Origin: a virus
DNA length: 24,714 nucleotides
IMG/VR virus record: IMGVR_UViG_3300001851_000085
Span: 1 to 24,714 of that record
Direction: 5' to 3' (one strand)
In this document: positions 1-5,536 of the stretch, one piece after another
How the letters are laid out: every line of letters starts with the position of its first letter
Numbering within the stretch: the stretch's first letter is position 1
Notes under the pieces: generated by a model
Told to the model about the DNA's origin: nothing
Databases searched by the model: none
The model's input: the letters and a program-made list of their open reading frames with translations, nothing else
Program-made: the position numbers and the translations under genes

Positions 1-171
1 GGATATTCGGATATTCGTAATAATTATTTTCCTAATGCAAAAACAGATTTTCCAAATGCAACTTATGCAACAACATCAACATTTTTTCATGGCACGAGTC
101 CAACTATAAGTGTAAAACAAATGATTTATATCAGAAAAATGGTTAAAAACTTTATGAGTAAGTTTCAATGA
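1..171 (+). CDS. C-terminal end of a probable PLP-dependent sugar aminotransferase/3-dehydrase (5' truncated)
   Basis: Frame 1 is open from the window edge to a TGA at 169-171, giving the last 56 residues of a protein. The tail has a pattern F-F-H-G-x-x-P-x-I followed by a helix (residues about 28-55) that resembles the end of DegT/DnrJ/EryC1-type PLP enzymes. It is closest in style to the RfbH/DdhC branch (CDP-4-keto-6-deoxyglucose 3-dehydrase), whose last segment reads F-x-G-x-x-P-G-hydrophobic and then a helix. The catalytic part lies outside the window, so this rests on a short match and on context: the next genes are a TPP enzyme and an epimerase, the known partners of DdhC in yersiniose synthesis. 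The stop overlaps the next start as ATGA, so the two are probably translationally coupled. A different sugar aminotransferase remains possible. Confidence 0.5.
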   Translation, partial: GYSDIRNNYFPNAKTDFPNATYATTSTFFHGTSPTISVKQMIYIRKMVKNFMSKFQ

Positions 172-1214
172 GAGTTTGTGATTATATTGCACAACAACTT
201 GTTAATCATGGAATAAAAAATGTTTACGGATTAATGGGTGGCGGTGCTTCTGGATTGAATGATGGATTTATTAAAAATCCTGACATCAATTATGTTTGTT
301 TTCATCATGAGCAAGCCGCCGGATATGCCGCCATTGGTGAAGCAAAATATACACGGAATTTTGCTGTTGTTAATCCAACTACTGGTTGTGGTGGAACCAA
401 TTGTATAACACCTTTGCTTGACGCATGGCAAGATGGCGTTCCTGTATTGTTTATTTCTGGAAATGTTAAATTATCACAAACCTCTAGATTTATTAATAAA
501 TTTAGTCGTGTTAGTATTCGTAAATATGGTATTCAAGAAAACGATATTATTAAATTAGTTGGTCCTCTAACTAAAGATTCTATTTTTATTGAAAATTATA
601 AAGACATTCCATATGTTCTAGATATCGCCTTCGATTTAATGACTACTGGCCGACCCGGCCCGGTGTGGATTGATATTCCATCTGATATACAGGTGGAAAA
701 AATGGATGAAGAAACTTTATCATATAAATTTAGGTTTAGGTCGATCGATGATTTATATTCTCATGAGTTTTCTGATAGAAAAATTATTGAGAATGTTGTA
801 TATCGTCTTATTAAACACGCAAAAAGACCTATTGTCTTGGCAGGAAATGGTATTGCACAAGCAAATGCCATTGATGAATTCATTACATTCATAAACAAAT
901 ATAAAATTCCATATGTGTCAACATATGGCGCAAGAGACTTTATTCCATATGACGATCCATACAATATTGGATGCATAGGTGTTAAAGGGTCTCGTGCTGG
1001 TAATATGGCTATGCAGCACGCCGATGTATTATTGATATTGGGGTGTTCTTTGAATTCTAGTCATATAGGTTATTCTAGTGAATTATTTTCACCAAATTCA
1101 TATAAAATAATGGTTGATATTCATCGTGCAGAATTAGATAAAGAAATAGTTTTCATTGACGAAAAATATAATATGCATTTATCTAAATTTTTTACAGTAG
1201 TTAATGGTGTTTGA
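168..1214 (+). CDS. TPP-dependent acetolactate-synthase-like enzyme, N-terminal part (YerE-like)
   Basis: The 348 residues hold the N-terminal thiamine-diphosphate (PYR) domain and the central domain of the acetolactate synthase/pyruvate decarboxylase superfamily. The motif HHEQAAGYAA at residues 46-55 carries the conserved cofactor-activating glutamate (E48). The stretch PTTGCGGTN near residue 70 and RPGPVWIDIPSD near residue 162 are family hallmarks. The C-terminal TPP (PP) domain with the GDG motif is missing here and is encoded in the next, +1-shifted frame. Together the two parts reach about 600 residues, the normal length of the family. In sugar clusters such enzymes (YerE) transfer a two-carbon unit from pyruvate onto a 4-keto sugar, and that role is inferred from context. 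The ATG overlaps the upstream stop and no strong ribosome binding site is seen. Confidence 0.85.
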   Translation: MRVCDYIAQQLVNHGIKNVYGLMGGGASGLNDGFIKNPDINYVCFHHEQAAGYAAIGEAKYTRNFAVVNPTTGCGGTNCITPLLDAWQDGVPVLFISGNVKLSQTSRFINKFSRVSIRKYGIQENDIIKLVGPLTKDSIFIENYKDIPYVLDIAFDLMTTGRPGPVWIDIPSDIQVEKMDEETLSYKFRFRSIDDLYSHEFSDRKIIENVVYRLIKHAKRPIVLAGNGIAQANAIDEFITFINKYKIPYVSTYGARDFIPYDDPYNIGCIGVKGSRAGNMAMQHADVLLILGCSLNSSHIGYSSELFSPNSYKIMVDIHRAELDKEIVFIDEKYNMHLSKFFTVVNGV

Positions 1215-1959
1215 AATGTTTAATGATTATGAAAAAAAAGCATGGTTTGATCAATGTAATAGATGGAAAAATAAATGGTCATATCAACTAAAGAAAATGG
1301 AAATTGATAAAAAGGATAATTCTCCATTCTCCATTTATGAAATAATGGAATTAGTAAGTAGATCATTGACAGAAGATATTGTAGTTGTAACTGATGCTGG
1401 TTCGCCATCCTACACATGTCCTGTTAATTTGAGAAATGTTCATAATGGAAGATTTATATTCAGTCAATCACAGGCAGATATGGGATTTTCAATTCCCGCC
1501 TCTGTTGGAGTTGCGTTATCTTCAAATAAAAATGTTTTGGTTATTGTTGGTGACGGTAGTTTTATGAGCAATGTTCAAGAGTTATCCACAATAAAATATT
1601 TTAATTTACCTATTAAAATTTTGGTATTGGATAATAGAGGATATATGTCCATTAAAAATACTCAAAAGAATTTTTTCAATAATAGAGTTTATGGAGTTGA
1701 TTCAACTTCCGGCGTTAATATTCCTCCAATCGAAAATATGGCCAATGCTTTTGATTTACAATTCTACAATCTACATTCCATATTAGATAATTTTGATGAT
1801 ATTATCAGGCTTTCTACTCCATGTGTAATGCAAGCCGTTTGTCATGAAGTAGAAGAAATAATTCCTATGCAATCATTTAAAGTTGTTGATGGTAAAACTA
1901 TTCAAGCTCCTTTGGATGACATGTACCCATTTTTAGATAATGGTAAGGAATCGTATTAA
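1204..1959 (+). CDS. TPP-dependent acetolactate-synthase-like enzyme, C-terminal part
   Basis: The 251 residues hold the C-terminal TPP-binding domain that the preceding ORF lacks. The metal/TPP motif GDGSF is at residues 116-120 and the closing Asn is N144 (VLDN), the usual spacing for this motif. The end of the protein contains DMYPFL, which I recall from TPP enzymes of surface-sugar clusters. The ORF overlaps its partner by 11 bases in the +1 frame. Starts could be ATG 1204 or ATG 1216, and neither has a clear Shine-Dalgarno sequence. The part may therefore be made by translational coupling after TGA 1212-1214, by a +1 frameshift there, or the split may be a mutation or assembly error. The TAA overlaps the next start as TAATG. 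An active enzyme would need both halves. Confidence 0.85.
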   Translation: MVFEMFNDYEKKAWFDQCNRWKNKWSYQLKKMEIDKKDNSPFSIYEIMELVSRSLTEDIVVVTDAGSPSYTCPVNLRNVHNGRFIFSQSQADMGFSIPASVGVALSSNKNVLVIVGDGSFMSNVQELSTIKYFNLPIKILVLDNRGYMSIKNTQKNFFNNRVYGVDSTSGVNIPPIENMANAFDLQFYNLHSILDNFDDIIRLSTPCVMQAVCHEVEEIIPMQSFKVVDGKTIQAPLDDMYPFLDNGKESY

Positions 1960-2807
1960 TGGTTAATGTTTTGGTATTGGGGTCTAAAGGTTTTTTAGGA
2001 TCGGTGTTGATTAGAGAGCTTCAAAAAAATTCAAATTATAATGTGCAAGGATTAAATAGAGATAATTATGATTTTACTCATTATCTTTCCACAAAATATT
2101 TTATTTCATCCATGGAACCAGATATTATAATTAATTGTGCAACACAGGGCGGTAAACAGAAATTAGGTGATTTTAATAAAGATGAACTTATCAATAACTT
2201 AAAAATTCACCGAAATCTTATGAATTGTAGGGATTATTACGGATTATTAATTAATATAGGTAGCGGTGCAGAATTTGATATTACCACAAATATTGAAAAT
2301 GTAAGAGAATGGGATTTTTGTGATATTGTTCCATCTGATAGTTACGGTCTATCAAAAAATATTATATCAAATGACACAAATTTTAAATGTTTAACTTTAC
2401 GTCTTTTTATGTGTTTTGATTATTCTGAACCTTCCTTTAGGTTACTTAAACGTTACTTAATGAATGAAAAAACCACTCTTACTAATCTCAAGAAGATTTC
2501 ATTTATTTCAGCAATAGATTTTTGTATTATTGTAAAACATTTCATTGATTTATATAATTGGAAACATATTTTGAGATTTAGTAATAATTATAATTTAATG
2601 ATGAATTGCGCATATCTAGAACAAATGTATGTGGATGAAATTTTGGATATTTTTTCAGACATACATAAAATTCCAAAAAAATATGAAATAGAAAGTTACT
2701 CAAATAATAGTTACACATGTAATACAGATTTATTGTATGGTCAATTTAATGAAGTGGTAAAAAAATTCGAGGGATTTGAGAGTGCCATGAGGAAATATTC
2801 TAATTAA
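1959..2807 (+). CDS. NAD(P)-dependent sugar epimerase/reductase of the extended SDR family
   Basis: The protein has 282 residues. The Rossmann dinucleotide-binding motif GSKGFLG is at residues 8-14, following a hydrophobic first strand. A YGLSK motif near residue 129 supplies the Tyr-x-x-x-Lys catalytic pair of short-chain dehydrogenases. NCATQGG near residue 60 matches the loop after the fourth strand. Such proteins epimerise, dehydrate or reduce nucleotide-linked sugars. Directly after a TPP enzyme, a YerF-like reduction of the newly added acetyl branch is an attractive guess, but the substrate cannot be read from the sequence. The ATG overlaps the upstream stop (TAATG), and AAGGAA lies about 10 bases before it, a good ribosome binding site. 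The 3' end overlaps the convergent gene by 8 bases. Confidence 0.8.
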   Translation: MVNVLVLGSKGFLGSVLIRELQKNSNYNVQGLNRDNYDFTHYLSTKYFISSMEPDIIINCATQGGKQKLGDFNKDELINNLKIHRNLMNCRDYYGLLINIGSGAEFDITTNIENVREWDFCDIVPSDSYGLSKNIISNDTNFKCLTLRLFMCFDYSEPSFRLLKRYLMNEKTTLTNLKKISFISAIDFCIIVKHFIDLYNWKHILRFSNNYNLMMNCAYLEQMYVDEILDIFSDIHKIPKKYEIESYSNNSYTCNTDLLYGQFNEVVKKFEGFESAMRKYSN

Positions 2808-4659
2808 TTTTTCCAATTGCCGGTGAAGGAGGAACATATCTAGGCTCTGGAATATTAAACACCATAGATTCATTCTGTGGTGTCATTTCCATTGAAAGAT
2901 TCGGTATTTCATTTATATTCACTGTTTTTTCTTCTATGGAGTTTAAATAATTTCTATTCATATTATTATTTTCAATTGCATTATTTTCCATGGAAAATGT
3001 ATTTTTTATAGAAATTGCTGGGGGTGGTTTACCATAATTTTTAATAACTGTAGTTGCCGGCATTTTTTCAATCGTATCGATTTTGTTATTTTTAGACATC
3101 GAGGCACTAATCTGTTGTTTATTTACATTTGATGTGCTTTGTCCATTAGTATGTGAATATGTTGCGGGTATCATAGTTGTTGATACAGAACTTATATTTG
3201 TGGAATGTTGTGTAACAGAAGGCGAATTTAAAGAATAATTAGAATTTTCTGAATTATTGGAATTTTTCAAATACAATTCATTTGTTTCAATATTTGGTAT
3301 ATTATTTATATTCAATTTGTCTGATGATACATTTTTATTATTTACAGCACTATTGACACTGTTATCAATTAATGAAGTTCCTTTTGATGATGTATTAAAT
3401 ATTCCTTCAATTGAATTGATATTTGAATTATTAAGTTTTATTCCGTCACTATCTATATTTTTATTTCTAGGTGTATTTGAAATATTATGATTTACATTAG
3501 TTTTGTTAGATGCTGGTAATATTACTGTTGATGAATTTTTTGTAATGCTTGTAGTGGACGGAAATTCATTAATATTATTTGATGTTGTGGTAGCAATGTT
3601 TCTATTTAAAATATTATCAGTTGATTTATTTTTTGTTGTGAAGTTGGAAACAGATACGTTTTCTGCCATACCAGATTTAATCGTAGATAATCCGTTTAAA
3701 TTTTCAACATTATTTTTTATTGATGATAATGTATTTGGTGTTGTTTCACTAATTTTGGATGGTGGCACAGACATACCAACATTTTCATTTTTTTCAAAGG
3801 TATTTCTTTTTAAATTCAGAAGATCATTTAATTCGTTATTAGTCTTGTCATTATTTGTTATTTGAACCGTATTTAATGTCGTGTTTTTATTTTTTTGTTG
3901 TGGAATTTTTTCCTCCACATTATTTCTAGATTTATTTTGCAATGATAGTATATTGTTTTCATTAGACGGAACAACTCTACTGGAATTAATATCGGTTTCA
4001 ATTTTAGATTGATATTCTGGGGAATTTGAAAATAAAGATAATAATTCGCCGCCGTCGTTATTTCTTGATGCCATCACAACATTTGAAATATTTGTTACTA
4101 TACTTTCCGGAATACCTATTTCTCTAATTGTTCCGTCTAATAATACTGAATTGTTTGCAAATTCGGGATCATTTTCTGGAAATGTATCAAATATATCTTT
4201 ATATACATTTCTTAAAATATTGGTTTCTTCTATTAATGTATTTTTACTGTTCAAACCAACGTTTTCTGAAATAGAATTCTGCTGATTATTTATGATCACA
4301 TTATTAATTTCTGGTATTTGGAATTTATTGATGTAATCGTCGCTTATAACATTTGATATAGAAGAAATTTTATTTAAATTTACACCATTCACATCTTTAA
4401 TTTTATTTAAATTGAAAATTTGTTTAATTTTCTGTCTTCGTATTTCCGGAACAACAACAGACATATTAACAGAAGGCTCTATCTCTGTTACCGGCTTTAA
4501 CGTATTTTTTAATGAATCAACAATCTGTTCCCCTGAATTAACAAATGAAAAATTTGTTAATTTTCTTACATTATTATTCAAATCTTCATTTAATAATAAA
4601 TTTACAGAAGGTATTCTTATATTTGGATTTAATTGTTGAATGTTATTTAAATTTGACAT
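2800..4659 (-). CDS. Asn/Ser/Thr-rich low-complexity protein in the tape-measure position
   Basis: The 619-residue protein is not recognised by family. Roughly one residue in five is Asn, with much Ser, Thr, Ile and Lys. Long low-complexity stretches fill about residues 220-540, and these are probably disordered. Better-ordered segments may lie at the N-terminus (residues 1-200) and at the end, which is rich in Pro. There is no signal peptide, no clear membrane segment and no enzymatic motif. The start overlaps the stop of the small upstream ORF (TAATG), so it belongs to the gp4/tube/gp26-like operon. A gene directly after a tail assembly chaperone pair is usually the tape measure, and T4 gp29 has a similar size (about 590 residues). 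The composition is atypical for a helical tape measure, so this role is only suggested by position. Confidence 0.6.
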   Translation of the reverse strand: MSNLNNIQQLNPNIRIPSVNLLLNEDLNNNVRKLTNFSFVNSGEQIVDSLKNTLKPVTEIEPSVNMSVVVPEIRRQKIKQIFNLNKIKDVNGVNLNKISSISNVISDDYINKFQIPEINNVIINNQQNSISENVGLNSKNTLIEETNILRNVYKDIFDTFPENDPEFANNSVLLDGTIREIGIPESIVTNISNVVMASRNNDGGELLSLFSNSPEYQSKIETDINSSRVVPSNENNILSLQNKSRNNVEEKIPQQKNKNTTLNTVQITNNDKTNNELNDLLNLKRNTFEKNENVGMSVPPSKISETTPNTLSSIKNNVENLNGLSTIKSGMAENVSVSNFTTKNKSTDNILNRNIATTTSNNINEFPSTTSITKNSSTVILPASNKTNVNHNISNTPRNKNIDSDGIKLNNSNINSIEGIFNTSSKGTSLIDNSVNSAVNNKNVSSDKLNINNIPNIETNELYLKNSNNSENSNYSLNSPSVTQHSTNISSVSTTMIPATYSHTNGQSTSNVNKQQISASMSKNNKIDTIEKMPATTVIKNYGKPPPAISIKNTFSMENNAIENNNMNRNYLNSIEEKTVNINEIPNLSMEMTPQNESMVFNIPEPRYVPPSPAIGKIN

Positions 4660-4832
4660 TAATTATTTTTTTCTAACAGTTCTTTATCTTTTATGTATTG
4701 AATTATCATTGCATTGAAAATTTCTAATTCATAGATTACCATATTTTCTACTTCCTGAATGCTGTATCCGTGATGTTGATGCATATTGAAAATATTTTGA
4801 TAAAAAGTTATCATATCATTATGCCCCAACAT
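4659..4832 (-). CDS. Small ORF behind the gp26-like gene, probable tail assembly chaperone extension
   Basis: The open frame gives 57 residues from ATG 4832 or 51 residues from ATG 4814. It contains HHGYSIQEVENM followed by an amphipathic helix with tyrosines and acidic residues. This resembles the short 'GYS-x-x-E-I-E-x-M' proteins that follow tail assembly chaperone genes in many long-tailed phages. That is recognition by style, not by a search. The frame stays open upstream of ATG 4832 to a TGA at 4850-4848. A ribosome slipping -1 at heptamer 4847-4841 on the gp26-like message would therefore read straight into it. The upstream gene ends at 4835 with TAGTGATG, so stop-restart is an alternative. 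The stop overlaps the next start as TAATG. Confidence 0.65.
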   Translation of the reverse strand: MLGHNDMITFYQNIFNMHQHHGYSIQEVENMVIYELEIFNAMIIQYIKDKELLEKNN

Positions 4833-4834
4833 CA

Positions 4835-5536
4835 CTAGATAAAATTTTCAAGATCATCTAATACGATTTTCCTGTATTCTCCCTTGGTGTTAGTGTATTC
4901 TATTTCATATGTAATTTTTGGCAAATTATCTATAAATTGTTTTAGATTTTCAAAATATGACGCAGGGAGAGATTCAATATAATTAGTCAATTCTTCTGTT
5001 GTCATTGTATTTGTGTTGTATACAGAATTTTCTGTGAAAATTTTTCGTATACAATGTTTCAAAAATTCAATGGTTTTTTCTATTGGATCGTCAAATAGCA
5101 GCATTTTTTTAACAGTGTCAAAGGTTGGATACATCATTTCCAATCCTTCATTGTGAGAAAACATTACCAACATTTCATTATTATTAGTAATGAAATTTAC
5201 ATTGGTTATGTCTATAGTTACTTCGTGTTTTTTAATTTTATTGTATTCGTCTTGTATAAGCAATTTTGTTATCTTGTTAACGGAGGCGGAACGAAGATGA
5301 AGAAAAATATATTGAAGTTCATAGAATGGTATTTTATACAAATCTACATTATTACTTTCCACCATACAATTATTGAGACAAACCATCATAGCATGTAATA
5401 ATTCCATTTGATTTTTACTTGATTGCGCGGTTAGTAATATTTTTTCTTCTTTAATAGTCATAACGCGCATAACTATTTCTTTTTTAGTTATTGGAAGATT
5501 TATTAATAAAATTGGGTGATTTACTTGAATATTCAT
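4835..5536 (-). CDS. T4 gp26-family baseplate hub assembly protein / tail assembly chaperone-like
   Basis: The protein has 233 residues; T4 gp26 has about 208. Its N-terminal half shows the pattern of the T4 base plate protein family: MRVMTIKEEKILL near residues 23-35, a CLNNC segment near residue 53, then FYELQYIFLHLRSASVNK at about 70-87, and alternating hydrophobic residues in EVTIDITNVNF near 104-114. In T4 this family helps assemble the central baseplate hub. The start overlaps the TAA of the tube-like gene upstream (TAATG), and a G-rich stretch before it may serve as a ribosome binding site. The last codons hold a possible -1 slippery site that would extend the product by about 60 residues. 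Confidence 0.7.
   Translation of the reverse strand: MNIQVNHPILLINLPITKKEIVMRVMTIKEEKILLTAQSSKNQMELLHAMMVCLNNCMVESNNVDLYKIPFYELQYIFLHLRSASVNKITKLLIQDEYNKIKKHEVTIDITNVNFITNNNEMLVMFSHNEGLEMMYPTFDTVKKMLLFDDPIEKTIEFLKHCIRKIFTENSVYNTNTMTTEELTNYIESLPASYFENLKQFIDNLPKITYEIEYTNTKGEYRKIVLDDLENFI
4841..4847 (-). other. Candidate -1 ribosomal slippery heptamer A_AAT_TTT
   Basis: In the gp26-like frame the last codons are GAA AAT TTT ATC TAG, so the heptamer A AAT TTT fits the X_XXY_YYZ rule exactly. A -1 slip reads AAA TTT TAT CTA GTG ATG and continues without a stop into the 57-codon ORF. The stop of the normal frame follows just one codon after the heptamer, which favours slippage. I see no strong downstream stem. 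A_AAT_TTT is not one of the most efficient bacterial slippery sequences, so function is inferred from frame geometry and from analogy with lambda G/GT and P2 E/E'. Confidence 0.45.

Follow-up and report, generated by a model that had tools for sequence, protein, structure and literature searches.

The 24,714-nt stretch of viral DNA analysed here (IMG/VR record IMGVR_UViG_3300001851_000085; the window) carries on its minus strand a short gp26-like gene followed by a small ORF in the -1 frame and then by a long gene, and this layout, proposed in the initial annotation, was confirmed by sequence. The first gene (4835..5536, minus strand, 233 aa) matched PF12322 (E 5.6e-36) and phrog_150 (E 4.2e-31) in profile searches, which identify its product as a gp26 family member; together with a fold model, they point to the short form of a tail-assembly chaperone (TAC), TAC-N. 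Its coding sequence ends GAA AAT TTT ATC TAG. The slippery heptamer A_AAT_TTT occupies 4841..4847 (minus strand) in the gp26 phase, and the -1 frame is open from the heptamer across the gp26 stop to a TAA at 4661-4659. This frame opens exactly at the heptamer, the -1 codon just before it being TGA. Its translation, KFYLVMLGHNDMITFYQ...KDKELLEKNN, spans 4659..4847 (minus strand), and the small ORF of 57-58 codons within it matched phrog_634 (baseplate hub assembly catalyst, gp51 family; E 2.7e-15). By profile, the small ORF therefore carries the gp51 C-terminal (T) domain, the putative extension of a long chaperone, TAC-NC.

A -1 slip at the heptamer would yield a fused product of about 292 aa in which the join is spanned by ...DLENFYLVMLGH. 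When the predicted fusion was aligned with the family profiles, residues 5-278 matched positions 10-276 of phrog_150 and residues 188-290 matched positions 12-113 of phrog_634, both with the register unbroken. The join itself is colinear with that of phage S-RSM4 (...ENF-YLVMLGHNDM in the window, ...ANF-FRIALFHNTL in S-RSM4).

The long gene (2800..4659, minus strand) overlaps the end of the -1 ORF as TAATG and encodes a 619-aa protein rich in Asn and Ser. Searches of this protein against the Pfam-type PF and phrog profiles gave no family hit. It is homologous to a 455-aa protein of a relative, L016 (BLASTP 1e-20), and profile matches identify a tape measure downstream in both HTVC008M and Cr30, separated from the chaperone genes by one small gene. 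By its position and its homology to the L016 counterpart, the 619-aa protein is a candidate tape measure. It lacks a Gly-rich hydrophobic stretch that is present in the counterparts from L016 and from another relative, L150. Together with the lengths of 619 and 455 aa, this points to strong variation in both size and composition from one relative to another. Elsewhere in the window (168-1959, plus strand), the coding sequence of a thiamine-pyrophosphate enzyme is divided between two overlapping ORFs, one with the N-terminal and central domains (PF02776, PF00205) and the other with the C-terminal domain (PF02775), next to an epimerase-like gene (PF01370). The split looks stable, being present in both the window and L016 (7087-8690).

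In T4, gp51 matched PF12322 over residues 1-201 (3.9e-52) and phrog_634 over residues 147-246 (1.2e-23). T4 gp51 is therefore a paralogue of gp26 to which the T domain has been joined in frame, the equivalent of a frameshift product hard-wired as one gene, whereas in the window the T domain would be reached through the -1 frame. T4 gp26 belongs to the TAC-N family, as does the gp26-like protein of the window, but T4 gp26 and gp51 are two divergently transcribed genes while their counterparts in the window are adjacent and joined in the -1 frame. Inspection of the 3' end of T4 gp26 (AAAGAGTTCTTTGAG) revealed no slippery site. Both T4 proteins are listed as hub assembly chaperones (PMC3004832). 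In L132, an IMG/VR genome of 167 kb, a T4-like gp51 gene (2001-2746) is broken by a change of frame near codon 120, perhaps through a sequencing error; we dropped it as a frameshift case because the break lies mid-gene and has nothing to do with the junction.

Conservation of the junction was examined in 18 T4-like lineages besides that of the window, in two additional outgroup contigs and in a set of 83 distinct junctions from IMG/VR. The isolates from which it was collected were S-RSM4, Mosig, DLP6, Cr30, P-SSM2, P-HM2, S-CAM8, S-RIM8, VH7D, HTVC008M, phiM12, RHph_I1_9, pf16, Melnitz-2, ACP17, DSL-LC02 and S-CREM2, in addition to uncultivated contigs. At 20/20 representative junctions the gp51 domain occupied the -1 frame with respect to gp26, and a canonical in-phase heptamer preceded the gp26 stop at all 20 of these and at 83/83 IMG/VR junctions. 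The -1 ORF ran for 40 codons or more at 81/83 IMG/VR junctions, the other two being cut by contig ends shortly past the stop. Among all relatives examined, the -1 frame was never interrupted by a stop, and no frame relation other than -1 was seen. Thus the junction, the phase and the open -1 frame, whose conservation the initial annotation had proposed to check, were kept throughout. The Vibrio phage VH7D (L022, 1138-2150; Straboviridae, Schizotequatrovirus) carries T_TTT_TTC, and its -1 frame encodes a gp51 domain missing from the annotation; the frameshift form therefore exists inside T4's own family too.

The slippery sequence differs between the window's lineage and the rest of the family. 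The 18 other lineages carry T_TTT_TT(T/C/G), with between 0 and 8 codons separating the end of the site from the gp26 stop. The IMG/VR junctions carry T_TTT_TTC (79 of 83) or T_TTT_TTT (4), at position -10 from the stop in 78 and at -7 in 5, and T_TTT_TTT is also found in the more distant contigs L151 and L152. A_AAT_TTT is common to the window, L016, L148, L149 and L150. Since L148-L150 were first retrieved with a DNA pattern that itself contained A_AAT_TTT, only L016, which was retrieved by protein, confirms this heptamer without bias. A protein search from L148 returned no close relative with another slippery site, and a genome-contig scan for relatives of the window's lineage found none. 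The codons GAA AAT TTT are identical in the window and L016, whereas elsewhere about half of the identical residues differ in codon. The heptamer at 4847-4841, its phase for tandem -1 slippage and the open -1 frame were all as originally described, yet within its family A_AAT_TTT is the exception rather than the rule, the better-known T_TTT_TTY being the norm. A_AAU_UUU belongs to H_HH.U_UU.Y, one of the classes of motif at which -1 slippage is efficient in E. coli (PMC4066793). An overlapping double site, A_AAT_TTT_TTC, occurs in 7 of the 83 IMG/VR relatives and is a plausible intermediate between the two types.

Structures that stimulate slippage are common downstream of -1 frameshift sites, though not obligatory. 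In the window, a five-base spacer (4836..4840, minus strand) separates the heptamer from a predicted hairpin (4770..4835, minus strand) with its 5' arm at 4835-4822 and its 3' arm at 4783-4770. The 75 nt past the heptamer have a predicted folding energy of -24.7 kcal/mol; among 4928 segments of this length sampled from both strands of the contig, just 3 fold equally well or better. For a 91-nt stretch we obtained a z of -5.6, none of 200 dinucleotide shuffles being as stable. A 14-bp stem starting 5 nt after the heptamer is predicted in all five sequences of the lineage, with 12 of the 14 pairs common to all of them. One pair covaries, with G-C, C-G and U-A versions, and is broken in one sequence; a second fails to form in two sequences, and a third is A-U in some and G-U in others. 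This covariation is supportive rather than conclusive because coding constraint acts on the same positions. For 81 of the IMG/VR junctions we also folded the 45 nt on the downstream side, which were more structured, with a mean z of -2.3 versus -0.5 in control stretches of the same contigs (p 6e-18, a value that overstates the independent evidence because the junctions are kin to each other). Stimulators of -1 frameshifting generally begin 5-8 nt downstream (PMC4066793), the distance at which the predicted structure sits. The 5' arm of the hairpin also contains the candidate starts (GTG/ATG/TTG) of the small ORF. We lean neither for nor against the idea that this sublineage shifted its frameshift one codon upstream when an ancestral A_AAU_UUU_UUC lost the T_TTT_TTC half, the long hairpin both stimulating slippage and hiding the starts of the T domain.

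The small ORF might instead be a separate gene, expressed by termination-reinitiation at TAGTGATG with neither a frameshift nor a long form. This would fit the GTG (+2), ATG (+5) and TTG (+8) found right after the gp26 stop in the window's lineage (TAGTGATGTTG), and also the TGATG-type overlaps in Cr30, L006 and phiM12. However, at least nine representative lineages and 37 of the 83 IMG/VR contigs offer no usable start before the conserved domain: ATG and GTG are missing there in S-RSM4, Mosig, P-HM2, S-CAM8, S-RIM8, HTVC008M, pf16, Melnitz-2 and DSL-LC02, the 37 contigs have no ATG, GTG or TTG before +20, and several Kyanoviridae have no start codon ahead of the point where the conserved gp51 domain begins. 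Within the window, moreover, the start codons sit inside the hairpin stem, and the -1 codons between the heptamer and the ATG are colinear with those of relatives (NF-YLVMLGHN against NF-FRIALFHN). The unchanged GAA AAT TTT between the window and L016 and the existence of the fused form in T4 also speak against a separate gene. We therefore consider separate expression alone improbable. Since the start codons in TAGTGATGTTG are present, separate initiation may operate alongside frameshifting in the window's lineage. That the domain often has no start codon of its own would account for its treatment in GenBank, where gp51 begins at an internal Met in S-RSM4 (L011), P-HM2 (L019) and HTVC008M (L023) and is left out altogether for S-CAM8 (L020) and VH7D (L022); what these five phages actually make is probably the frameshift fusion.

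A change of frame by RNA polymerase rather than by the ribosome is very unlikely. Most relatives do have six or seven consecutive T, on which a polymerase could slip, but the run in the window's lineage is only AAAATTTT, too short for efficient slippage, and for the window we rejected transcriptional slippage on this ground. Nor would a polymerase mechanism need the heptamer phase to be conserved, and a structured element lies downstream of the site. It is just as hard to credit that the heptamer and the open -1 frame reflect a coincidence between adjacent unrelated genes. In-phase X_XXY_YYZ heptamers occupy 69 of 5740 codon positions (1.2%) in the window's genes, A_AAT_TTT itself 9 of 5740, and the 10-nt overlap between the two frames offers only two positions, so that the chance of an in-phase heptamer is about 2%. 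By itself this is modest evidence; the join, however, recurs in all the relatives examined, which span several host groups, and it is this recurrence, together with the strongly stable downstream hairpin, that makes the case against chance decisive.

To relate gp26 to known chaperones, we compared an AlphaFold2 model of the window protein (pLDDT 86) with solved structures. VIA-align matched it to Geobacillus RBSTP2171 (3FGX; Z 8.5, 87 residues, 4.0 A), which is a TAC (PMC9603447), and to HK97 gp13 (2OB9; Z 7.2, 83 residues, 3.8 A), the next match after these two TACs scoring only 2.6. The alignment is confined to the first 95 residues of gp26, at 8-10% sequence identity, and gp26 differs from both proteins in having about 135 further residues, which adopt a mixed alpha/beta fold in the model. 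In a Foldseek search of the PDB, 2OB9 ranked eighth with a probability of 0.28, so the two TACs were separated from other matches only by the second look with VIA-align. A gp26 profile search of the PDB sequences found no TAC, a T4-like gp51 model compared with the PDB gave no TAC match and no informative match, and the NCBIfam search gave no match. The modelled N-terminal domain of gp26 thus resembles the TAC fold, which supports the tie between gp26 and the tail-assembly chaperones that the initial annotation had suggested.

Taken together, the conserved join, the heptamer, the hairpin, the T4 gp51 fusion and the TAC fold match lead us to conclude that the locus very probably encodes the TAC-N/TAC-NC pair of a T4-like myophage, expressed through programmed -1 frameshifting. 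The frameshift reading first put forward is thereby upheld, by the conserved junction, its phase and open -1 frame and by the in-frame fusion of the same domain in T4. We infer from these features that slippage occurs in vivo, with some efficiency, and that the products act as chaperones. Most ribosomes would terminate gp26 at TAG to give the 233-aa TAC-N, while a minority would slip back one base on A_AAU_UUU as the downstream hairpin holds them. The latter would continue in the -1 frame and produce a TAC-NC of about 292 aa, consisting of gp26 and the helical gp51/T domain. On the lambda gpG/gpGT model, TAC-N may coat the tape measure and the T domain may recruit tail tube subunits, and both forms would leave before the virion is completed.

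Frameshift expression also bears on annotation, as many public records of cyanophages, Pelagibacter phages and Vibrio phages omit the long product, shorten the gp51 domain by starting it from a spurious internal codon, or call both proteins baseplate hub parts.

The locus shares with lambda gpG/gpGT and P2 E/E' a short protein, a probable -1 frameshift near its end and a C-terminal extension, with a tape measure downstream in relatives; the lambda likeness is drawn from layout, the next gene in the window being a candidate tape measure by its position. The lambda slippery site is G_GGA_AAG. A paper by Vladimirov, Gautam and Davidson (Virology 2022, 566:9-15; pmid 34826709) reportedly linked gp26/gp51 to the tail-assembly chaperones, and its abstract is said to describe frameshifting as conserved in several T4-like groups, with T4's own group using separate genes. 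Our results agree with this account, which reportedly concerns the same two protein families. The tie between gp26 and the chaperones suggested by the initial annotation is supported, but it is not new, having been published for T4-like phages in 2022. In the lambda system the short product is major and the long product minor, and a review describes the G-T frameshift as widely conserved in long-tailed phages with T4 as the exception (PMC5009743). The conserved gp26/gp51 frameshift of T4 relatives and the T4 gp51 fusion support the 2022 proposal that T4 is no exception, one frameshifted gene having been replaced by two. The citing passage of one paper states that some T4-like phages have a short gene and a separate long fusion gene (PMC10885494), and that of another notes polyT -1 sites in TAC-N genes of T4-like phages (PMC12846349). 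Set against the polyT sites of the 2022 study, as its title and the papers citing it convey them, what is new here is the A_AAU_UUU variant of the window's lineage (A_AAT_TTT in the DNA) and its unusually long hairpin, which overlaps the possible starts of the T domain.
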